DNA from: a virus
Direction: 5' to 3' (one strand)
IMG/VR virus record: IMGVR_UViG_3300044630_000573
Location: 1 to 24,896 of that record
Length of the DNA: 24,896 bases
Shown here in pieces: positions 8,307 to 23,130 of the stretch; position 1 is the first letter of the stretch, and every line of letters starts with the position of its first letter. The notes below the pieces were generated by a model. That model was not told where the DNA came from, searched no databases, and worked only from the letters and a program-made list of their open reading frames with translations. The position numbers and the translations under genes were made by a program.

Positions 8307-11300
8307 ATGACCCTAATACTGAAAGACCGAGTTAAAGAAACAACCACAACTGTTGGGCTAGGAACCATATCTTTAGGTGGGTCTTCGGATACGTTTGAGC
8401 CGTTTTCTACAATAGGAACCGGCAATACCACGTATTACGCCATTGTTGCCGAAGGCAACGATAACTGGGAAGTTGGCGTAGGAACCGTTGGTAGTGGTAC
8501 GTTGAGCCGCGACATAGTTTTGGCGTCTTCTAATCTAAATGCTAAAGTCAACTTCCCCGCCGGTACAAAAGACGTATTTGTAACGCTTCCGGCTAACAAA
8601 ATTGTCAGTAAAGACGACGCTACTGGCATCAACAGCGGTATCAGTCTTGCCGACTATGTGGACTTTGACACCGCCGCCGCCCCAGCCACCGCCGTTGGCC
8701 GTCTGTTCTGGAACGACCAAGACGGTACGCTTGACCTTGGCCTAAAAGGCGGTAACGTAACAATACACATTGGCCAGAAACAAGTAATCCGCATCGTTAA
8801 TAAAATAGGTTCTAGTTTATCGGCCGCCAATTACCAATGCGTTAAGATTAGCGGCGCCCAAGGGCAACGCCCAAAAGTTGCACTAGCGCAAGCCAACAAT
8901 GACGCCAACTCCGCCGACACCATTGGCCTTGTCAACGAAACGATTGCCAATAACCAAGAAGGCTTTGTCTGCACCGGCGGCACCATTACGAACATCAATA
9001 CCACGGGTTCGCTTCAGGGCGAATCGTGGAATGATGGCGATGTTCTGTACCTGTCTGGAACTGTTGCTGGGCGACTTACTAATGTAAAACCGCAAGCCCC
9101 AATTCATACCGTCATTGTCGGATTCGTTATCTATGCCCACAATAATCAGGGCAAAATCTATGTAAAGGTCGATAACGGCTATGAACTTAACGAACTGCAC
9201 AATGTGCGGATTAACGGCGTAACTAACGGCCAAGTTCTTACATACAACAATGGGCTTTGGGAAAATCAAACAAACGGTTCGGGTACCGTCACAAGCGTAT
9301 CGGTTGTGTCGGCTAATGGATTATCCGGTTCCGTAGCCAACTCGACTACAACTCCGGCCATTACGCTTTCAACGTCAGTTTCCGGCCTTTTGAAAGGTAG
9401 TTCCGGTGCGTTAGCGGCGGCGTCTGCTACGGATGTACCAGAACTGCCGCAAAGCAAGATTACCAATCTAGTATCGGACTTGGCGGCGAAAGCCCCGTTG
9501 GCGTCCCCGGCATTGACGGGAACGCCGACAGCGCCGACTGCGGCCGTCGGCACTAATACCACACAAGTTGCTACTACCGAATTTGTCAACGCCGAAATTG
9601 CCAACGATGCGCCGTCCAAGACTGGTACTGGGGCTAGTGGAACTTGGGGAATCAGCGTTACGGGTAACGCAGGCACAGTTACCAATGGCGTTTACACTAC
9701 TGGAACACAAACCATCACAGGCAATAAAACCTTTACTGGCTCTGTAACGATGGGGCAAAGCGGTGGTGGTGAAGGCGGTGAGATTCTGTGGCTTGACCCT
9801 GTTCAGGGAACAGTCTGCACAGACATACCTGCTTCTGGGTTTTTCCGTGTGTTTCAAACAAGTGGCACAGCTAAGGGCGCGTACATTGACTTGGCTAACT
9901 GCGCAGGTGGTGTAGGAAGTCTGCTTCTTCACTCAACCAACTACAACAGCTATGCACCTACCCTGACTGGTGGTGGTGCTTCTGGCTCTTGGGGAATCAG
10001 CGTAACTGGTAATGCAGGCACAGTCACTAATGGTGTCTATACCACAGGCAATCAGACCATCGGCGGTGTTAAAACTTTTAGCAATGATATAGGCGCAACA
10101 TTTGGCGGTCAACTTGTATTAACAAACTCCGCATCTGGCGCAACAAATCCTAATAAACATTTTCGTGTTGGTCCTACCGGAAATCTAGAGATAATAAACA
10201 GCGCATATAATGCCGTTCCTTTTACATTTACTGACGCTGGCATACTTAGTGTTAGTGCTGAATGTAACGCGCCTGTATTCAAGGATGTTAACAACTCAGC
10301 CTACTACCTAGACCCTGCCAATACAGGCACATCTATGGTGGTGGCAGGCGATGTCGGTATTGGCTCAGACTCTCGACCGTTTAGATTGACTGTTGCCAAT
10401 AACACCTTTGATGGAATGTGGGCAGGAAGCTCTGGCACATATTCATTCGTTGGACTTGGCGGTTATTTCAGTGGCACAGCAGGCGCGTCTCAGATTGGTT
10501 ATGAGCGCACTACGGGACTAATTACTTTCTCTGGTGGAACTAGAGACACGCCAGTAACAAGAATGAGCATCAACAGCTCTGGTAATGTAGGTATTGGTAC
10601 GACAAGTCCGGGTCGTAGGCTTTCTATCGCAGGTGGTGGCTTTGCGTTTGATGATGCGAATACTACATCCCGTTCTGTTCATTGGGGTGATGGAACTACT
10701 TATCCCTTGCTAATTCAGGGCGATGTAACAAATGGCTTTATATCATTTAATACTCATGCGTCTGGAAGTGGACCACCTGAAAGACTGCGCATTGACAGCG
10801 CAGGCAAGGTGCTTATCGGCGCAGGCGCAACAGCATCACTTGGAAAGCTTGTAGTTAGCGAAGCATCATCTGGTACGGCTGTTATTGCTCTTGAGAGTCA
10901 AGGCTCGTGGAATAGCACGATTGCTTGCACATCCACTGGTAATCTTGTTCTTAGGAATAATGGTGCATCAGACAGAATGGTTTTTGACCCATATGGGAAT
11001 ATCATTACTTATGGGCCGATGTTTGCATCTATATACTATGACAACGATAACTCAGCATTTTATGTAAATCCAAACGGCACTTCAAATATAAACAGCCTTG
11101 TCATGAATGGACTTATACAGGGTCGCTCATGTGCTGACACTAATGTAAACACGGCAAACGACACAGGTTCTATATCTATTCGTGGTAGTTCTAGCACCGT
11201 AGCATCCATGTCGTTCCATCGTACTGGCGCATACGCTATAAACATGGGTCTTGGTACAGACAATGTGTTCCGAATTGGTGGATGGTCGGCATCAAGCAAT

Positions 11301-11645
11301 GCCTTCCAGATGGATGGCTCTGGCAACCTGACAATGCTGAACAATGTCACGGCATATTCTGACGCTAGACTAAAAACAGACATTGTTAAGATTGAAAACG
11401 CCTTAGATAAGGTACAGCAACTTAACGGATACACCTACACGCGAACTGATACTGGTTCTAAACAAACTGGCGTTATTGCACAGGAAGTGATGAAGGTGTT
11501 GCCAGAAGTTGTGATGGGTAGTGAGGACACTCATTACAGCGTTGCATACGGCAATATGGTCGGCTTGCTAATTGAAGCAATGAAAGAGCAACAGGCTCAG
11601 ATTGACGAACTTAAACTAACCATTGAACAACTTAAAGGTAACTAA
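8307..11645 (+). CDS. tail fibre with C-terminal S74 self-cleaving chaperone
   Basis: This 1112-residue receptor-binding fibre is Gly/Ser/Thr/Asn-rich throughout, as expected for a trimeric beta-structured shaft. It contains a duplicated segment (about residues 439-478 and 554-593, each with WGISVTGNAGTVTNGVYTTG), a motif seen twice in variant form (NNSAYYLDP near 660, DNSAFYVNP near 913), and GNVGIGTTSP-type turns. Residues 1018-1112 form an intramolecular chaperone auto-processing domain (Peptidase S74). SDARLKTDI gives the Ser1018/Lys1023 pair with the five-residue spacing of the known dyad, then QTGVIAQEV, and a closing coiled coil. In characterised family members the domain trimerises the fibre, then cuts itself off before the Ser. 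The start lies 3 bases after the adaptor stop with no clear Shine-Dalgarno. DNA from about 9700 is A/T-richer than the high-GC genes around it. Confidence 0.93.
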   Translation: MTLILKDRVKETTTTVGLGTISLGGSSDTFEPFSTIGTGNTTYYAIVAEGNDNWEVGVGTVGSGTLSRDIVLASSNLNAKVNFPAGTKDVFVTLPANKIVSKDDATGINSGISLADYVDFDTAAAPATAVGRLFWNDQDGTLDLGLKGGNVTIHIGQKQVIRIVNKIGSSLSAANYQCVKISGAQGQRPKVALAQANNDANSADTIGLVNETIANNQEGFVCTGGTITNINTTGSLQGESWNDGDVLYLSGTVAGRLTNVKPQAPIHTVIVGFVIYAHNNQGKIYVKVDNGYELNELHNVRINGVTNGQVLTYNNGLWENQTNGSGTVTSVSVVSANGLSGSVANSTTTPAITLSTSVSGLLKGSSGALAAASATDVPELPQSKITNLVSDLAAKAPLASPALTGTPTAPTAAVGTNTTQVATTEFVNAEIANDAPSKTGTGASGTWGISVTGNAGTVTNGVYTTGTQTITGNKTFTGSVTMGQSGGGEGGEILWLDPVQGTVCTDIPASGFFRVFQTSGTAKGAYIDLANCAGGVGSLLLHSTNYNSYAPTLTGGGASGSWGISVTGNAGTVTNGVYTTGNQTIGGVKTFSNDIGATFGGQLVLTNSASGATNPNKHFRVGPTGNLEIINSAYNAVPFTFTDAGILSVSAECNAPVFKDVNNSAYYLDPANTGTSMVVAGDVGIGSDSRPFRLTVANNTFDGMWAGSSGTYSFVGLGGYFSGTAGASQIGYERTTGLITFSGGTRDTPVTRMSINSSGNVGIGTTSPGRRLSIAGGGFAFDDANTTSRSVHWGDGTTYPLLIQGDVTNGFISFNTHASGSGPPERLRIDSAGKVLIGAGATASLGKLVVSEASSGTAVIALESQGSWNSTIACTSTGNLVLRNNGASDRMVFDPYGNIITYGPMFASIYYDNDNSAFYVNPNGTSNINSLVMNGLIQGRSCADTNVNTANDTGSISIRGSSSTVASMSFHRTGAYAINMGLGTDNVFRIGGWSASSNAFQMDGSGNLTMLNNVTAYSDARLKTDIVKIENALDKVQQLNGYTYTRTDTGSKQTGVIAQEVMKVLPEVVMGSEDTHYSVAYGNMVGLLIEAMKEQQAQIDELKLTIEQLKGN
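9621..9739 (+). repeat. direct repeat in fibre gene, copy 1
   Basis: About 119 bases encoding ASG, WGISVTGNAGTVTNGVYTTG and a GNKTF end match copy 2, exactly 345 bases (115 codons) downstream. The protein is better conserved than the DNA; many third positions differ, so the duplication is old or both copies are under selection. Confidence 0.85.
9966..10084 (+). repeat. direct repeat in fibre gene, copy 2
   Basis: This is the second copy of the 119-base unit at 9621-9739. It encodes WGISVTGNAGTVTNGVYTTG identically, with changes at the edges (GTW to GSW, GNKTF to GVKTF). The pair could allow recombination that shortens or lengthens the fibre shaft by 115 residues. Confidence 0.85.
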
Positions 11646-12813: not shown

Positions 12814-13060
12814 ATATACAGAAAGCGAACTCAAGGCGCGGATGCGCTTTATGATTGGCATCGCCCTTTCCTTCACCCTTTGCGTCATTGTCTGCGTGGT
12901 GCTGTATTCCCTAGTCTTTGTAACCCAACCGATTGGCGCACAAGCACCTAATGATGCAGAGTTTTTTAAGCTAATCGTTCCCATTGCCACCTTCCTGACG
13001 GGCATATTGTCTGGGATTATGATTGACACGAAATCAAACAACGGAGAAAACAAAGAATGA
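12806..13060 (+). CDS. holin-like membrane protein (two segments)
   Basis: The 84-residue protein has two clear hydrophobic segments, about residues 15-38 and 54-75, separated by a short loop (QPIGAQAPND). It has a charged N terminus (RYTESELKARMR) and a polar charged tail. Small size, two membrane helices and direct overlap (ATGA) with the endolysin gene fit a class II-like holin. Holins form the timed hole that lets the endolysin out. Another two-helix protein at 15221 is an equally good candidate, so which is the real holin, or whether one is an antiholin, is unresolved. Alternatively it is an anchor protein unrelated to lysis. Confidence 0.8.
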   Translation: MTRYTESELKARMRFMIGIALSFTLCVIVCVVLYSLVFVTQPIGAQAPNDAEFFKLIVPIATFLTGILSGIMIDTKSNNGENKE

Positions 13061-13659
13061 GTCTGGCATCTTTACAAGCTAAGATTGGCGTAACGGCAGA
13101 CGGCGTGTTTGGCAAGGGAACGTTGAAGGCCGCGATGGCCTATTACAAGCTAACCCCTGTCCAAGCGGCTCACTTCTTTGCCCAGACCGCCCACGAGTCC
13201 GGCAACTTCAAAGCCTTCTCTGAGAATCTGAACTACTCAGCCGAGGGCTTGCTTAGGATATTCCCTAAGTATTTCGACCAAGCTACGGCCAACAAGTACG
13301 CCCGGCAACCGGAAAAGATTGCCAATCGCGTCTATGCTAACCGCATGGGTAACGGCGATGAGGCCAGCGGTTCGGGATGGCTATACAAAGGCCGAGGAGC
13401 CTTGCAACTTACGGGCAAATCGAACTATAAGGACTTTACTGACTGGCTGGGCAAGACCATCGACCCAAACGCTGTGGCTGATGAGTATGCCTTTGAGTCT
13501 GCCAAGTATTTCTTTGACAAGAACAAGCTGTGGGCAATCTGTGACAAAGGTGTGGACGACGCCACCATCCTTGCCCTGACTAAAAGAATAAATGGCGGAA
13601 CCCACGGCCTCGATGACCGCAAGGCTAAGACCAAGCTGTATTATTCTTGGCTTACATAA
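13057..13659 (+). CDS. GH19-type endolysin
   Basis: The 200-residue protein is a glycoside hydrolase family 19 (chitinase-like) endolysin that would cut the glycan of peptidoglycan. Visible motifs: TAHESGNF with catalytic Glu47; SENLNYS with Glu56, nine residues on as in bacterial GH19 enzymes; YKGRGALQLTGKSNY (about 110-124); and KRINGGTHGLDDR near the end. Residues 5-28 (LQAKIGVTADGVFGKGTL) resemble part of a peptidoglycan-binding repeat, common at the start of these lysins. There is no signal peptide, so release depends on a holin. The ATG overlaps the holin-like gene's stop. Length is typical for single-domain phage GH19 lysins. Confidence 0.93.
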   Translation: MSLASLQAKIGVTADGVFGKGTLKAAMAYYKLTPVQAAHFFAQTAHESGNFKAFSENLNYSAEGLLRIFPKYFDQATANKYARQPEKIANRVYANRMGNGDEASGSGWLYKGRGALQLTGKSNYKDFTDWLGKTIDPNAVADEYAFESAKYFFDKNKLWAICDKGVDDATILALTKRINGGTHGLDDRKAKTKLYYSWLT

Positions 13660-15221: not shown

Positions 15222-15475
15222 TGTTTACCGATAAGGTTCACAAATACTGGTTGAAGTCCAAAACCGTCCTTTGGAATCTGGCCATTACCTTGGCTGGTAT
15301 CTGGTCGATGTTTGAGGGCTACGCCCCCAATCTCCGGGCTGTTCTGGGTGATAAGTGGTTTGGCATTGTCATGTTCAGCATTGGCGTCATCGGTATTTGG
15401 CTTCGTATCATTACCAAAGACGCCATTGTCCCAGCAAAAAAGGCCGTAGAAAATGACCTTATCTCTCGTCCTTGA
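15221..15475 (+). CDS. holin-like membrane protein (second candidate)
   Basis: The 84-residue protein has two hydrophobic segments, about 14-32 (KTVLWNLAITLAGIWSMF) and 47-65 (FGIVMFSIGVIGIW), with an N terminus and C terminus both rich in Lys/Asp. This is the shape of small two-helix phage holins placed next to spanins. The ATG at 15221 is chosen because it overlaps the XhlA-like stop; an upstream in-frame ATG at 15128 would overlap that gene by more than 90 bases. It overlaps the Rz gene by 23 bases. With the holin-like protein at 12806 this phage has two candidates. Confidence 0.82.
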   Translation: MFTDKVHKYWLKSKTVLWNLAITLAGIWSMFEGYAPNLRAVLGDKWFGIVMFSIGVIGIWLRIITKDAIVPAKKAVENDLISRP

Positions 15476-15836
15476 GTTACTAGGCGGAGTCCGAGCCGCG
15501 GTATTTGCGCTCCTCGCCTTTCTTCTTTTGGTCGGTTTTGGCGTTCAGACGTTCCGCCTGAGTAGCGCCAAGAAAGACCTGTTAGTAGCCGAAGCAAGCA
15601 CGGCCAATATGACGGCGGCCCTGAAGCAGTTGGAAGCTGAAGGTAAAGCCCAAAAAGCCCGAGCAGACAAGGCCGTGGTAGAATATGCGGAAGTCAAGAT
15701 TAAACTTGACCGTGCCAAGGCGAAAGTCATAACCAAACTGGAAAAGGTCTATGTTTCTGACAAGCAAAGCCAAGAATGGGGTAGTGTGCCTGTTCCTAAC
15801 GCTGTCGTTGAGCAGTTGCGCCAGCCGGCCCGTTAA
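15453..15836 (+). CDS. Rz-like inner-membrane spanin
   Basis: This 127-residue protein has one N-terminal membrane segment (about residues 10-31, then FRLSSAKKDL) and a periplasmic coiled coil (about 35-100, rich in Ala, Lys and Glu). It ends with a short conserved spanin tail (QEWGSVPVPNAVVEQL, about 106-121). Rz proteins span the periplasm with a partner outer-membrane lipoprotein and fuse the two membranes in the last step of lysis. The partner gene starts inside its 3' end in the +1 frame (15751). Length and layout are typical, and the spanin pair implies a Gram-negative host. Confidence 0.92.
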   Translation: MTLSLVLELLGGVRAAVFALLAFLLLVGFGVQTFRLSSAKKDLLVAEASTANMTAALKQLEAEGKAQKARADKAVVEYAEVKIKLDRAKAKVITKLEKVYVSDKQSQEWGSVPVPNAVVEQLRQPAR

Positions 15837-16008
15837 GGTCGAGGTCAAGTATCAGCCGTTACCGGCTGAACTTGTCGTACTCGAAGACCCCTGTACGCTT
15901 GCCAACGACCCGAAGAACAAGGACCTTGCCGAAGCCTATTACCTGTGCTTCCTGAAGCTGGAAGCCGCCAATGCGCGGCTCAAGGCCATTAAAGAGATTA
16001 CGAACTGA
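15751..16008 (+). CDS. Rz1-like outer-membrane spanin lipoprotein
   Basis: This 85-residue gene starts inside the Rz-like gene and overlaps it by 86 bases in a different frame, the classic Rz/Rz1 arrangement. The N terminus is a lipoprotein signal: Lys residues at 6 and 8, hydrophobic VVCLFLTLSL, and lipobox LSSC with Cys23; Ala at +2 is compatible with outer-membrane sorting. The mature part has Pro residues (KYQPLPAEL) as in Rz1, then a longer than usual helical end with two Cys (LEDPCTL and AYYLCFL). The stop overlaps the next gene (TGATG). Its partner is the protein at 15453. Confidence 0.92.
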   Translation: MFLTSKAKNGVVCLFLTLSLSSCASRPVKVEVKYQPLPAELVVLEDPCTLANDPKNKDLAEAYYLCFLKLEAANARLKAIKEITN

Positions 16009-17489
16009 TGGCGCTTCTGCCCCTCAAACTCCCGCCGGGCGTGTACCGCAACGGCACCGATTACCAGAGCCAAGCGCGGTTCTTTGACGCTAACCTTGTT
16101 CGGTGGTACTCCGATACGCTCCAGCCCATCAAGGGCTGGCGTAAACGTACCGAAACCCAACTGACGGGCGTTCCGCGCGCCATCCTGACGTGGCGGGCGA
16201 ACAATGCCACCCGTTGGGCGGCCGTGGGAACGCACTCAAAGCTGTACGCGCTTGAAGGCGGTACGACGGTAGTGGACATCACCCCAACCGGATTTACCGC
16301 CGGTAGCGCCAACGCCACCGCGTCTGTGGGCTTTGGTACCCAAGACTTTGGCGAATACGCCTACGGCGTTGCCCGTCCGTCCACCACTACGTCTGGCTCA
16401 ACCCCGGCGTCCATGTGGCAGTTGGACACGTGGGGGGAATACCTTGTTGCTTGCGCACCGCACGACGGTAAGATTTATGAATGGACGCTTAACACCGCTA
16501 ACGACGCGGTAGCCATTACCAACGCCCCAACTAGCAACAAGGGCGTCGTTGTCACGTCTGAGCGCATTATGTTTGCGCTGGGCGCCAGCGGCAACCCCCG
16601 CCTGATTAAGTGGTCTGATGTCGAGGACAATACGGACTGGACGCCGTCGGCCACCAACCAAGCCGGTGATATTGAACTCCAGACCCCCGGAACGATTCAA
16701 TGCGGCCGTCGTGTCCGCGCTGGTACCTTGATTCTCACCGACTGCGACGCTTGGATTGCCCAGTACCAAGGCCCGCCCTTCGTGTATGGCTTTGACCGGG
16801 TCGGTACGGCCTGTGGCGTGGTATCTGCCGGCGCTGTTGCTACCGTGGAAACCTACGCCGTCTGGATGGGCGATTCGGGCTTCTGGATGTACGACGGTTA
16901 CGTCAAGCCCTTGCCGTCCACCGTGTACGACTACGTCTTTAGCGACATCAACACCGCCCAGATTTCCAAGGTCGTGGCCTTCAACAATACGGCCTTTGGC
17001 GAGGTCTGGTGGCACTATCCGAGTTCAGCCAGTACCGAGAATGACCGTTACGTGGCGTGGAACTACCGCGAAAACACATGGACGATTGGCCGACTCGCCC
17101 GCACCGCCGGCGATGATTCTGGCGTGTTTTCGTTGCCCATGCTGGTCAGCCCTGACGGCTACGTGTACGAGCATGAAGTGGGCTTCAACTATGACGGTGC
17201 TACGCCGTACGCCGAATCCGGCCCCATCGAGGTTGGCAACGGCGACAACGTGGTGATGATGCGCCAGATTGTGCCGGACGAAAAAACCCAAGGCGACGTA
17301 CAGGCTCGGGTTTATGCGAAGTTCTTCCCGAACGGTGCGGAAACGGCCTTTGGCCCTTACGCCATGGGTCTGCCTACGGACGTCCGTTTGACCGCCCGGC
17401 AAGTCCGTGTGCGCTTCGAGGGCGTACGTAACGCCGATTGGCGGGTGGGCATTATGCGTCTGGAAGGCGTCTTGGGCGGCAACCGATGA
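16008..17489 (+). CDS. tail nozzle/tubular-type protein
   Basis: The 493-residue protein opens with LPPGVYRNGTDYQSQARFFD and then LVRWYSDTLQPIKGWRKR, the start of a large family of short-tail tube proteins in environmental and Proteobacteria podoviruses. The middle shows repeated blade-like segments (WAAVGTHSKLYAL, WQLDTWGEYLVAC, HDGKIYEW, DAWIAQYQGPPF, WMGDSGFWMYDG, WHYPSS), suggesting a beta-propeller such as the nozzle below the adaptor in SU10-like and T7-like tails. The C-terminal part (about 400-493, ending RVGIMRLEGVL) is beta-rich. It lies downstream of the lysis block, away from its adaptor partner. Length and order fit; the exact name (nozzle, tubular B or stabilisation protein) is uncertain. 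Confidence 0.78.
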   Translation: MALLPLKLPPGVYRNGTDYQSQARFFDANLVRWYSDTLQPIKGWRKRTETQLTGVPRAILTWRANNATRWAAVGTHSKLYALEGGTTVVDITPTGFTAGSANATASVGFGTQDFGEYAYGVARPSTTTSGSTPASMWQLDTWGEYLVACAPHDGKIYEWTLNTANDAVAITNAPTSNKGVVVTSERIMFALGASGNPRLIKWSDVEDNTDWTPSATNQAGDIELQTPGTIQCGRRVRAGTLILTDCDAWIAQYQGPPFVYGFDRVGTACGVVSAGAVATVETYAVWMGDSGFWMYDGYVKPLPSTVYDYVFSDINTAQISKVVAFNNTAFGEVWWHYPSSASTENDRYVAWNYRENTWTIGRLARTAGDDSGVFSLPMLVSPDGYVYEHEVGFNYDGATPYAESGPIEVGNGDNVVMMRQIVPDEKTQGDVQARVYAKFFPNGAETAFGPYAMGLPTDVRLTARQVRVRFEGVRNADWRVGIMRLEGVLGGNR

Positions 17490-17693: not shown

Positions 17694-18068
17694 ATGGACA
17701 ACATTATCCGCGAAAATGCCGAGAACGCCCGTCCATTTATTGAGGCGGCCTTGGAATATTCAGGCGGAAGTCACAATTTTGAAGATATTGTTGACGGAAT
17801 ACTGTCCGGCGAAATGCAACTTTGGGCTACTGACAAAGCGGCATTAGTTACTGAAATCCACCTTTGCCCACGCAAAAAGCGGTTTCACGTCTTTCTCGCC
17901 GGTGGCGACCTTACCGAGATTAGACGGCTTGCGCCGATACTTACCGAATGGGCCAAGGGCCAAGGGTGCCAGCAGATAACTCTTACTGGCCGTAGAGGCT
18001 GGGAACGCAGTTTCCTTCAACAAGACGGTTTTTCAACTTTACAATATACTTTATTTAAGGACATCTAA
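17694..18068 (+). CDS. GNAT-like internal virion protein
   Basis: The 124-residue protein resembles a GNAT (acetyltransferase-fold) domain. There is an N-terminal helical part (RPFIEAALEYSGG), strands ALVTEIHLCPRKKRFHVFLAG, a helix RRLAPILTEWAKGQG, then strand ITLTGRRGW and the closing LQQDGF typical of the C-terminal fold. Similar proteins occur before the ejection proteins in T7-like phages (gp13-type) and other podoviruses, where they act in virion assembly rather than as proven enzymes. The usual CoA-binding Q/RxxGxG/A loop is not evident (LAGGDL at about 68-73 instead), so acetyltransferase activity is doubtful. The stop overlaps the next start (TAATG). Confidence 0.75.
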   Translation: MDNIIRENAENARPFIEAALEYSGGSHNFEDIVDGILSGEMQLWATDKAALVTEIHLCPRKKRFHVFLAGGDLTEIRRLAPILTEWAKGQGCQQITLTGRRGWERSFLQQDGFSTLQYTLFKDI

Positions 18069-19222
18069 TGGGCAGTTCTTCCCAAAAGACCAAACAAACC
18101 ATTGACCCGCGCCTTACTAACGCGGCGCTAAACGTCTTTGGTCAAGGTCAAGCCGCCGCTAATCAACTTGGCGTACGTAATATTGCCGGCTTTACCCCAG
18201 ACCAACTGGCCGCCATGGAAATGACACGTGGCGCGATTGGTACTGGCGCTGGCGCAGTTAATCAAGCCGTTGGTACTGCTGGGCAAGTCGCTGGTTTTAC
18301 GCCGGGTCAAGTTCAGGGTCAATCCTTCCTGAACGCCAACATCGGCGCATACATGAACCCCTACCTTCAGAACGTAGCGGGTAATGTCATGTCCGACCTT
18401 GACCGCCAACGTCTGATGCAACAAAACCAAAACGCCGCAAGTGCGTTTCAGGCTAAAGCCTTCGGCGGTTCGCGTCAAGGCGTTTTGGAAGCCGAAACCA
18501 ACCGCGCCGCGCAAGAAAATGCCGCCCGCGCGCTGACCGACCTGTATTCTGGCGGGTTCAATGCCGCCGCCCAACTTGCCGGTCAAGACCTCAGCTTTGC
18601 TCAACAAGCGGCTCTGGCAAACCAGCAAGCGGGCATTTCCGGCGCTGGCCTCAATCTGCAAGCCGCTGGCCAGTTGGGTCAACTTGGCGGGGCGCAACAA
18701 GCCATGTCCCAAGCCGACATCGCCGCCCTCGGCAACGTCGGTTCGATGCAACAGCAACTTGCTCAAGCCACTACCGATGCCGAGCGTAACCTTATCCTTG
18801 AGAAGTTCCAGTTGCAACAAGGCGCTCTTGGTTCGCTGGCGCCGTTGGCTGGTAACGTCACATCTACCGCTAAAGTCACTCCTAGCTTCGGGCAAACCCT
18901 TGGCCAAGCCGCGCAAATCGCCGGTACGGCCATGATGTTTTCCGACCCGAGCATGAAAGAAAACGTCAAGCCGATGAAAGGCGCGCTGAAGAAACTTTCG
19001 TTCCTGAACGGTAGCACGTACAATTACATGGACGACGAAGACGAAACCCCGACTGGCGGTATCATGGCTACTGACGTCAAGAAAGTTATGCCGGGCGCTG
19101 TTAAAACTATGGATAACGGAAAGATGGCCGTTGACTACTCTAAGGTTACGGGTCTGCTGGTCGAAGCCGTTAAAGAACTGGACGACAAAGTATCTAGCAA
19201 AAAGAAAGGTAAAAAAGCATGA
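18068..19222 (+). CDS. DNA-ejection-type protein with C-terminal S74 chaperone
   Basis: In this 384-residue protein, residues 1-280 are Ala/Gln/Gly/Asn-rich and helical (AANQLGVRNIAGFTPDQLAA, AFQAKAFGGSRQ, FAQQAALANQQAGISG), like podoviral ejection or internal virion proteins. Residues 292-384 are a second Peptidase S74 domain. SDPSMKENV gives Ser292 and Lys297 with the normal five-residue spacing, then GGIMATDVKKVMPGAV, VDYSKVTGLLVEAV and a Lys-rich end (KKKGKK). S74 domains normally trimerise beta-helical fibres and self-cleave; here one follows a helical body. TAAGGA lies shortly before the ATG, which overlaps the GNAT-like stop codon. Alternatively this is a tail tip protein. Confidence 0.85.
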   Translation: MGSSSQKTKQTIDPRLTNAALNVFGQGQAAANQLGVRNIAGFTPDQLAAMEMTRGAIGTGAGAVNQAVGTAGQVAGFTPGQVQGQSFLNANIGAYMNPYLQNVAGNVMSDLDRQRLMQQNQNAASAFQAKAFGGSRQGVLEAETNRAAQENAARALTDLYSGGFNAAAQLAGQDLSFAQQAALANQQAGISGAGLNLQAAGQLGQLGGAQQAMSQADIAALGNVGSMQQQLAQATTDAERNLILEKFQLQQGALGSLAPLAGNVTSTAKVTPSFGQTLGQAAQIAGTAMMFSDPSMKENVKPMKGALKKLSFLNGSTYNYMDDEDETPTGGIMATDVKKVMPGAVKTMDNGKMAVDYSKVTGLLVEAVKELDDKVSSKKKGKKA

Positions 19223-20429: not shown

Positions 20430-20941
20430 AACCTGTGACCGATACAGCCATACTTGAGCAACTCACAACAAAACCAGCGGCCTCTAAAACGGCGGCTTCG
20501 CCAACTGGCTATAACGAGCGCCAACGCGCCGGCGCGGGGCTAATTTATGAAAATACATTGAATTATGCTGAAGCTGTTACTGGCCTTAGTAAGGCGCAAT
20601 TAGCCCTTATGACGCCGGCGCAGATTGAAAGAGCAGTAAAAGAACGCGGTAAGCGCACTTTCCAAGGCGCGGTTATGGGAAATATCCCGTTGGTATCAAA
20701 AATTGCTAACGCGGACATACGGCCTTACTCGATGGGCGCGGCACAAGGGCAAGCGGCAATCAACAACCCGACTGGTCAGATTACAGGCCCCGACCTTGAT
20801 GCGGCGCTGGTCATGCAACCGAATATCGGACAACCTATTGACACTCAAGCACGTCTAATCCGACAAAATCTTGAAACTGCGTTGAAGGGACAGCCCCAAA
20901 ATACCGCCCCAGCCGGCTGGTCCATCAAAAAGGTAAAGTAA
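20426..20941 (+). CDS. probable internal virion protein, unknown function
   Basis: This protein has 171 residues from the ATG at 20426, which makes an ATGA junction with the preceding gene like others in this run. An in-frame ATG at 20414 is possible, but AAAGGA (20406-20411) is only 2 bases from it and 14 from 20426, so the start is uncertain by four residues. The protein has a disordered Ala/Thr/Lys start, a helical centre (RAGAGLIYENTLNYAEAVTG, LMTPAQIERAVKERG) and a Gly/Pro/Asn-rich end with DTQARLIRQNLETALKG. No catalytic motif is seen: the Glu in LIYENTLNYAEA and the Gln-rich end are not enough to call a muramidase. It lies between ejection-type genes and ends in TAATG with the largest of them. 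Confidence 0.75.
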   Translation: MKPVTDTAILEQLTTKPAASKTAASPTGYNERQRAGAGLIYENTLNYAEAVTGLSKAQLALMTPAQIERAVKERGKRTFQGAVMGNIPLVSKIANADIRPYSMGAAQGQAAINNPTGQITGPDLDAALVMQPNIGQPIDTQARLIRQNLETALKGQPQNTAPAGWSIKKVK

Positions 20942-23130
20942 TGGCAACTTATCAGATTACCGGCCCAGACGGTTCAGTTTATGAAATAACTGCTCCAGAA
21001 GGTGCCACGCAAGAAGAATTGCTGGCGTATGCTCAGACGGGTGTGGCTCCTAAAGTTGCCCCGCCGACTCCACTTGCGCCGGTATCGACTGGCCAAGCCG
21101 TCCTTGGCACCGCGCGTAATCTTTTGCAAGGTGCGATGCTTGGCACGAGCGATGAAGCGGAAGCCCTTATTGCCAAAGGGTTAGACGTGGCTGGCGTTCC
21201 GTCTAGCATTACCGGAGTTCCTAGTGGTCTTACTACTGAACAATACCGCCAAATTATTGAAAACCAGCGCCTTGGCGTGTCGCAACAGTTTCCAACATTA
21301 TCTGCCGGCGCTGAACTTACTGGCGCGGTTCTCCCCGCTTTCTTAACGCGCGGGCAGTCCTTACGTGCCGCCCCCGTAACTGGTATGGAAGTTGCCCCTA
21401 GCCTTGGGCGTCAAGCGCTTGAAGGCGCGGGCTTGGGCTTCTTGTACGGCGGAACGACTGCCGCTGGTAAAGCGGAAGGTGGCCTTGGCGAACGAATTGC
21501 CGCTATGCCGGAAGGTGCTACCCTTGGAGCCGTGTTTGGCGCGGCAACACCGCCAAGCCTAGCTGGATTGAAAAAGGGACTCACCACGCTGGATGAACTG
21601 CTTCTTAGCGGTGGTGGGGCAAAAACTCTTAACACGGGTTTAAGTTACGTTGACCAGCTTTTGCTTGGTGGCGCGCGGGAGCCAGTTGCTACACCAGACA
21701 AAGCCAAAGACAAAGCCAAGCAACTGATTCTTGAATCTTTGCGCCGCGATGAAATTACCGCACCTCAAGCCGCTACTCGTATTGCCGAATTGGAAGCTAA
21801 AGGTGTGCCGGATGTTATGCTCCCTGAAGTTGCTGGACGTGCAACAACCCAGCGCCTTAGCGCCGCCGCCAACTTCCCCGGTGGTGGCATCGACACCGTT
21901 TCTGAAAAATTGATTCGAAACGTCCAAAACCAAAGCACCTTGCTCCCGCAATACCTGTCCCAAGCGTTTGGCGTTAAGGGCGGAAACTCGTCGCAGATGG
22001 TGGATTCCATCATCGCATCGCGTTCGGCGCAAGCCGCACCGCTTTACAACAAGGCGTACTTTGCCGACCCGCAAGGAACGGTACCGCGCTATGTTAATGA
22101 CCCGAAAGTAAACTCGCTTTTGAAACTTCCGCAGTTCAAAGATGCGGCCGATGAAGCCGCTGGGCTATTGCGCGCGGAAGGCGCGATTGCGGCAGATGCA
22201 CCGGTAAGCCTTACGCCTACGGTGCAGAATCTTGACAACATAAAGCGTGGCCTAGACGTCTTGATTGACAAGCAAACGGATGCTGTAACCGGCAAAATGA
22301 CTCCGTTGGGTCGCATCTACGTCGGCAAAAAGAACGAGTTTCTAAATGCCATCGACGCCGCCGTTCCGGAATACAAGGCCGCACGTCAAGCCTTTGCCGG
22401 CAATACCGAAGCCGCCAATGCTATCAAGCTGGGCCGGCAAGTTATTAACGCCAGCGACGACCAATGGCGTGATATTACCAAGCAGTTGGCCGCTATGCCG
22501 GCCAGCAACCGAGGATTGGCGGCGTTTGGCGTACTTGATGAACTTGGCCTGAAGCTGGACGCCGCCGCGCAACAAGTCGGCACCCGCGCGCCGGACTTGA
22601 CGCAACTGCTGACTAAAGTTCGCAACGCGAAACGCATTGAGCAATTCATTCCGTCCATGGCCGAGCGTAAACTGTACCGTGAGCGACTAGAAGCCCTTCA
22701 ATCCAAGGCAAGGGTAAAGAACGCTGTGGATAGTGGTTCCCGTAGTACGCCGTTGTCTGCCGAAATGCAAGACCTTACTGCTGGCGCTACTAGCGGTGAA
22801 ATATCTTCTTTGGCCGTAGGAAATCCTCTTCCTACTATCGCGCGTGGCGTCCAACAATGGATTTTGAACAAACGCTCCGGGATTACAGAACCTGTTGCCA
22901 AAGAAATGGCATCAAATTTGACGCTGACTGGTAAACCCCTTCAGGATTATCTGGCGTCGTTAGTTCCGTATCAACGCAAGTTGTTCATGGACGCCACCCG
23001 CGAAGCGAACAAACGCGCCGTCGCCGCTGGCCTTTCCGGCTATACGGCTGGCGCTTTGCCGACCATCAACAAACGGCCAAGTTCTGGCCCAACTACCCGT
23101 GGCGGTGCGCGCGGTCTTCTCAATCAATAA
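20941..23130 (+). CDS. large DNA-ejection-type protein
   Basis: The 729-residue protein starts with a small conserved domain (YQITGPDGSVYEITAPEGAT, EELLAYAQ; about 3-35) found at the N terminus of many phage internal proteins. After a Pro-rich linker, residues about 50-215 are Gly/Ala-rich, with glycine-zipper-like stretches (GAGLGFLYGGTTAAG, GATLGAVFGAA) that could insert in a membrane. The rest (about 250-700) is mainly helical, with YNKAYFADPQGTVPRY, LDNIKRGLDVLIDKQ and YKAARQAFAGNTEAANAI; these recur in ejection proteins of podoviruses. The C terminus is basic and Gly-rich. By analogy with T7 gp15/gp16 or P22 gp16 it may help form the trans-envelope channel. No lytic transglycosylase motif was seen. 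Confidence 0.8.
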   Translation: MATYQITGPDGSVYEITAPEGATQEELLAYAQTGVAPKVAPPTPLAPVSTGQAVLGTARNLLQGAMLGTSDEAEALIAKGLDVAGVPSSITGVPSGLTTEQYRQIIENQRLGVSQQFPTLSAGAELTGAVLPAFLTRGQSLRAAPVTGMEVAPSLGRQALEGAGLGFLYGGTTAAGKAEGGLGERIAAMPEGATLGAVFGAATPPSLAGLKKGLTTLDELLLSGGGAKTLNTGLSYVDQLLLGGAREPVATPDKAKDKAKQLILESLRRDEITAPQAATRIAELEAKGVPDVMLPEVAGRATTQRLSAAANFPGGGIDTVSEKLIRNVQNQSTLLPQYLSQAFGVKGGNSSQMVDSIIASRSAQAAPLYNKAYFADPQGTVPRYVNDPKVNSLLKLPQFKDAADEAAGLLRAEGAIAADAPVSLTPTVQNLDNIKRGLDVLIDKQTDAVTGKMTPLGRIYVGKKNEFLNAIDAAVPEYKAARQAFAGNTEAANAIKLGRQVINASDDQWRDITKQLAAMPASNRGLAAFGVLDELGLKLDAAAQQVGTRAPDLTQLLTKVRNAKRIEQFIPSMAERKLYRERLEALQSKARVKNAVDSGSRSTPLSAEMQDLTAGATSGEISSLAVGNPLPTIARGVQQWILNKRSGITEPVAKEMASNLTLTGKPLQDYLASLVPYQRKLFMDATREANKRAVAAGLSGYTAGALPTINKRPSSGPTTRGGARGLLNQ

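Follow-up and report, generated by a model that had tools for sequence, protein, structure and literature searches.

A C-terminal S74 auto-processing domain on a helical ejection-type protein of a short-tailed phage

We describe a viral gene that joins a helical, ejection-type protein to a C-terminal S74 intramolecular chaperone domain. It lies at 18068-19222 of a 24,896-nucleotide stretch of DNA (positions 1 to 24,896 of IMG/VR virus record IMGVR_UViG_3300044630_000573), which is referred to as the window. In the reading that we prefer, and to which we assign a probability of roughly 0.58, the gene encodes internal virion (ejection) protein B of a short-tailed phage and carries a removable S74 chaperone that trimerises and then cuts before Ser292. 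The presence of an S74 domain on a helical ejection-type protein had been proposed in a first-pass annotation of the window and is borne out by Pfam, by the predicted structure and by the gene context. The argument draws on the following features.

8307-11645, plus strand: tail fibre bearing the other S74 domain, used as the comparison copy (Pfam and an independent six-frame search)
16008-17489, plus strand: hub/head-closure-type protein, 'phage stabilization protein' in relatives (PHROG 3287)
17694-18068, plus strand: upstream gene of 124 residues, internal virion protein A (IVPA)-like, 'acetyltransferase' in relatives (gene order of relatives)
18068-19222, plus strand: complete gene, encoding a helical protein of the internal-virion type that ends in an S74 domain (384 residues, 39.6 kDa)
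18068-18844, plus strand: helical Ala/Gln/Gly-rich part, residues 1-259 (PHROG 4287 'DNA ejection protein' family)
18845-18940, plus strand: linker, residues 260-291, predicted C-terminus of the mature protein (mostly pLDDT below 50)
18941-19219, plus strand: S74 intramolecular chaperone/auto-processing domain, residues 292-384, 10.1 kDa (Pfam, AlphaFold and Foldseek)
18941-18943, plus strand: codon of Ser292, predicted nucleophile, with the predicted cut between Phe291 and Ser292 (motif conservation; equivalent of MyRF Ser587, PMC8326128)
18956-18958, plus strand: codon of Lys297, predicted general base (conservation; equivalent of MyRF Lys592, PMC8326128)
19136-19216, plus strand: C-terminal S74 helix, residues 357-383, candidate trimer coiled coil (predicted; the short S74 in other fusions lacks it)

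The reading frame represents one intact, real gene. Its ATG start overlaps the stop codon of the preceding gene, its end shares a 4-base overlap with the start of the following gene within a tightly packed run, and the frame is kept open in close relatives that are 87-100% identical. The encoded protein consists of a helical part (residues 1-259), a disordered linker (260-291) and the S74 domain (292-384).

Pfam Peptidase_S74 (PF13884) matched residues 292-346 over the complete model (positions 1-58) with an E-value of 1.5e-7 and 32 bits against a cut-off of 22. A six-frame search of the record returned exactly two S74 domains, this one and that of the fibre at 8307-11645. They share 32% identity across about 88 residues, in agreement with the earlier description of a second, diverged copy. 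In the AlphaFold model of the full protein a confident domain extends from about residue 290 to 377, and its best PDB matches are chains of the intramolecular chaperone (ICA) domain of MyRF. When the S74 domain was modelled alone (52 S74 sequences), AlphaFold reached a pLDDT of 83 and Foldseek placed MyRF ICA (7dc3) first (E 1.3e-5, TM 0.69), followed by 3gud/3gw6, the GA-1 and endosialidase chaperones. The fold of residues 292-384 had been set beforehand as a test that could refute the assignment; AlphaFold and Foldseek show the S74/ICA fold there.

The Ser292/Lys297 pair was confirmed as intact: both residues are present, spaced by five, and invariant in alignment A5. Among distinct fused S74 segments the S-D-x-x-x-K motif is kept in 67 of 67, a count that is perhaps slightly optimistic because the HMM that found these segments could favour the motif. 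The Arg at Ser+3 (SDxR) of known S74/ICA domains is replaced by Ser295 in the window protein; since it is kept in just 29 of the 67 distinct fusions, this Arg is not strictly defining for S74. MyRF cuts between P586 and S587, and either S587A or K592A abolishes cutting, which also depends on a trimer formed via the C-terminal coiled coil; R590A results in partial and misplaced cuts (PMC8326128). The window domain has its fold, the Ser-Asp-x-x-x-Lys motif and a C-terminal helix in common with the S74/ICA domains of endosialidase, the GA-1 neck appendage, T4/T5-type long fibres and MyRF, and it shares the C-terminal position with the phage carriers of S74. Because it possesses what MyRF needs, with the exception of the Arg, we propose by analogy that self-cleavage before Ser292 is likely. 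What sets it apart is the carrier: the phage proteins known to carry S74 are beta-rich, trimeric fibres or spikes, and the MyRF domain belongs to a transcription factor, whereas the window domain sits on a helical ejection-type protein.

The S74 domain of the window also differs from those of its fused relatives. From the Ser to the end, most fusions comprise about 69-77 residues, compared to 93 in the window. Held out of both models, the window S74 reached 77 bits against a fibre-type HMM and 48 bits against a short-fusion HMM; the fibre set includes a few rows of the short type, an admixture that should do no more than reduce the difference. Judged by sequence, the window S74 is of the fibre type with a predicted C-terminal trimer helix, unlike the short form found in most fused relatives of the PHROG 4287 family. 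As the other fusions are of the short type without this helix, the window S74 probably has an origin separate from theirs. When a tree is drawn from the helical core, the window clade and the short-type fusions fall apart from each other, the one exception being L061, a long row with poor placement. When the window was compared with its relatives L008 and L009, dN/dS was 0.097 and 0.092 for the S74 domain (dS 0.29-0.62); the helical part gave 0.130 and 0.171, and the linker 0.20 and 0.39. The window S74 is under strong purifying selection and, given this constraint, very likely functional. A search of the L008 contig (38,178 bases) with the window S74 returned the ejection-type S74 only, so this near relative may lack the S74 fibre seen in the window.

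For the helical part, AlphaFold (75 sequences) predicts helices at residues 14-33, 44-74, 93-128, 135-194 and 202-255, and the conserved core is AFGGSR at residues 131-136. The composition is 19% Ala, 15% Gln and 13% Gly. The initial estimate of about 280 Ala/Gln-rich helical residues ahead of S74 was a fair one; order ends near residue 259 and is followed by a low-pLDDT linker over most of 260-288. PHROG 4287 'DNA ejection protein' gave a long match to the window protein and to many relatives, with or without S74. Outside the S74 domain, Foldseek with the full AlphaFold model gave generic long helices and no fold match, and a PDB search with the helical family gave long-helix look-alikes only. 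NCBIfam gave no useful match. The last 20 residues of the linker are without charge, and AGTAMMF directly precedes Ser292. Over the 20 residues before the Ser, median hydropathy is 0.97 in the fusions, -0.10 in fibres and -0.45 in the helical part; the uncharged segment of the window protein has a modest mean of 0.47. Several S74-less relatives (L012, L020, L024, L027 and L032; 743-949 residues) are helical and enlarged by repeats of the ANQ type that recur every 11 residues, and autocorrelation was best at 11 in L012, L020 and L027. This suggests a long amphipathic rod whose length differs between phages.

The gene is located after the hub gene and the IVPA-like gene and before other internal virion proteins. 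Among the relatives, 150 of the 183 complete cases that could be scored have an IVPA-like gene upstream (75/91 with S74 and 75/92 without), and a gp10-like hub gene lies upstream in all 73 scorable S74 cases and in 90 of the 99 S74-less ones. The podovirus gene scheme gives P22 gene 14 as the homologue of IVPA (PMC10386132), and the assignment of the upstream gene to P22 gene 14 rests on this published scheme; the place of P22 gp7 and T7 gp14 in podovirus gene order has likewise been described (PMC8954989). The IVPA-like gene directly upstream marks 18068-19222 as internal virion protein B, and because the gene order matches the published scheme, the gene stands in the place of P22 gp7/T7 gp14, with which its product shares the Gly/Ala-rich character. 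In hhalign comparisons with P22 gp7 and T7 gp14, the full helical family stayed at chance level as judged by reversed-sequence and other-protein controls, and the P22 gp7 profile matched a 35-column Gly-rich, low-complexity C-terminal patch in some S74-less relatives only. No match was obtained between the upstream gene (17694-18068) and P22 gp14 by BLASTP, or between P22 gp10 and the window hub protein by phmmer.

The PHROG label and the gene order in relatives support the earlier notion of a run of DNA-ejection-type genes. The product had been described as an internal or tail-tip protein; gene order favours the internal, ejected alternative and makes the tail tip less likely. We conclude that 18068-19222 probably encodes an internal virion protein that is injected to open a path for the DNA. 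A relative with S74, gp27 of Sinorhizobium phage phiM5 (phiM5_27), is recorded in the particle proteome beside three internal virion proteins. This protein and p40 of Ochrobactrum phage OH have the helical core, an S74 domain and the gene neighbours in common with the window, and both carry a short S74 without the trimer helix, unlike the window protein. The run is closed by a 729-residue protein (20941-23130) most of which matches PHROG 5880, a family of unknown function, and which by position is perhaps the largest ejection protein. The structural gene run further contains an overlapping Rz/Rz1-type spanin pair (15453-15836 and 15751-16008) and an endolysin (13057-13659). A serine recombinase/invertase-type gene (34-756) directly precedes the small terminase gene, and in one relative a gamma-delta resolvase likewise adjoins the small terminase.

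In the helical family, S74 is optional. Sequences related to the helical part were drawn from phage records and viral contigs, some of them with a query that itself bears S74, and in this set the core HMM recognised 210 ORFs, 91 with S74 and 119 without (17 of the 119 cut by a contig end); a scan with an S74-less query yielded 14 with S74 and 56 complete ones without. The helical-core tree, which is built on 122 columns and leaves many forks open, requires 15 or more changes of the S74 label, and well-supported branches force at least seven of these; gain and loss are counted alike. To compare their ends, S74-less relatives were each aligned to the nearest S74-bearing one. Among the closest pairs (at least 53% identity), 17 of 18 S74-less proteins ended at -4 to +3 of the residue before the Ser, and the scatter was greater at lower identity. 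As an example, L150 has the C-terminus ...LGAASSAVSILGTLASL, and L141 has ...LGAASSIASIIGML at this place, followed across the predicted cut by SDRRMK. The coincidence of these ends with the predicted cut point fits a removable domain; it is supportive rather than decisive, as an uncut appended domain predicts the same border. Taken together, the carried-or-missing pattern and the matching ends suggest that S74 is a disposable assembly aid.

We also considered S74 as a separate gene beside S74-less relatives and rejected this, since S74 ORFs without the helical core were mostly fibre-like. Two scans of bacterial genomes returned no relatives of the helical family. Short S74 domains were found to end proteins of 300-340 residues at a comparable position in the gene order of EBPR podovirus 2 (L225:8218-9198), Pseudomonas phage PAE2 (L226:8284-9195) and Rhizobium phage RHph_N2 (L228:8200-9219), with N-terminal parts that the helical-family HMM did not recognise. 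The link of S74 to the ejection-gene position may therefore be wider than the helical family.

We propose the following course of events for the window protein. The S74 domains of three chains would meet via their C-terminal helices, and the S74 trimer would hold the helical chains together while they fold and enter the particle. Ser292 and Lys297 would then act as a dyad that cuts before Ser292, giving a 291-residue mature ejection protein of 29.6 kDa and a 10.1 kDa S74 fragment that would be lost. The mature protein would have an uncharged, Gly/Ala-rich, mildly hydrophobic C-terminus and would then be equivalent to the S74-less relatives, which are made directly with such a C-terminus; it would reside inside the particle and take part in the injected channel. 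Trimming of P22 gp7 offers a precedent: an N-terminal piece is removed in the course of assembly by the host enzyme OpdA, and deletion of the piece has little effect on function (PMC8402733). In that case, however, a host enzyme acts at the opposite end and no S74 is involved. Points against our reading are that Ser295 takes the place of the SDxR Arg, that the predicted C-terminal helix is shorter than that of MyRF, that the profile comparison with P22 gp7 and T7 gp14 gave nothing above chance for the family as a whole, that many relatives are recorded as 'tailspike' and that the hydrophobic tail is weak.

Alternatively, the S74 could remain attached without being cut and serve in the virion for trimerisation or docking, for instance by forming a knob at the hub or portal. 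The window protein lacks the Arg of SDxR, and the short S74 of most relatives is widely retained even though it has no trimer helix of the kind that MyRF needs to cut, both of which would fit such a role. Yet Ser and Lys occur in every distinct fusion segment, which is hard to explain without catalysis, and close relatives manage without S74; we regard an uncut domain as rather unlikely. An external tail-tip or fibre-like component with S74 in its usual role would agree with the fibre-type S74 of the window and with the names 'tailspike' and 'tail fiber domain-containing' on relatives, names that probably stem from the S74 match alone. This appears quite improbable to us, as the protein has long helices and no beta-rich fibre shaft, most relatives sit in the internal virion protein run, and the PHROG label reads 'DNA ejection protein'. 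We give hardly any credence to the idea that the window S74 is a recent, non-functional transfer from a fibre gene. The domain is indeed of the fibre type and shared in this form only by the nearest relatives, but dN/dS values of 0.09-0.10 at dS 0.29-0.62 argue against it, as do the intact dyad and fold and the existence of short-type fusions in the same helical family.

The removable, self-cutting chaperone that we favour can be placed in a wider and more tentative picture. Podophages may have taken up S74 at least twice, once as the short and once as the fibre type, on an ejection protein that opens the outer membrane. The domain would restrain a membrane-active C-terminus and the oligomer state until assembly, and self-cleavage would represent a maturation step of the DNA-ejection machinery.

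Related fusions were described in the first-pass annotation as present in databases, and phage records and UniProt do contain many, under names such as 'chaperone of endosialidase', 'tailspike protein/chaperone' and 'Intramolecular chaperone auto-processing domain containing protein'. According to that annotation their purpose is not known to have been described, and we likewise found no functional account of such fusions in the open-access literature. Our literature searches, mainly of open-access papers and therefore no proof of absence, turned up no publication on S74 attached to an ejection protein.

The solubility, counting and head loading of ejection proteins are poorly understood. A self-removing trimer chaperone on such a protein would, if true, mean that S74 is not merely a fibre-folding device, and would provide a maturation cut that a single residue change can switch off. 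The presence or absence of S74 among close relatives constitutes a natural experiment.
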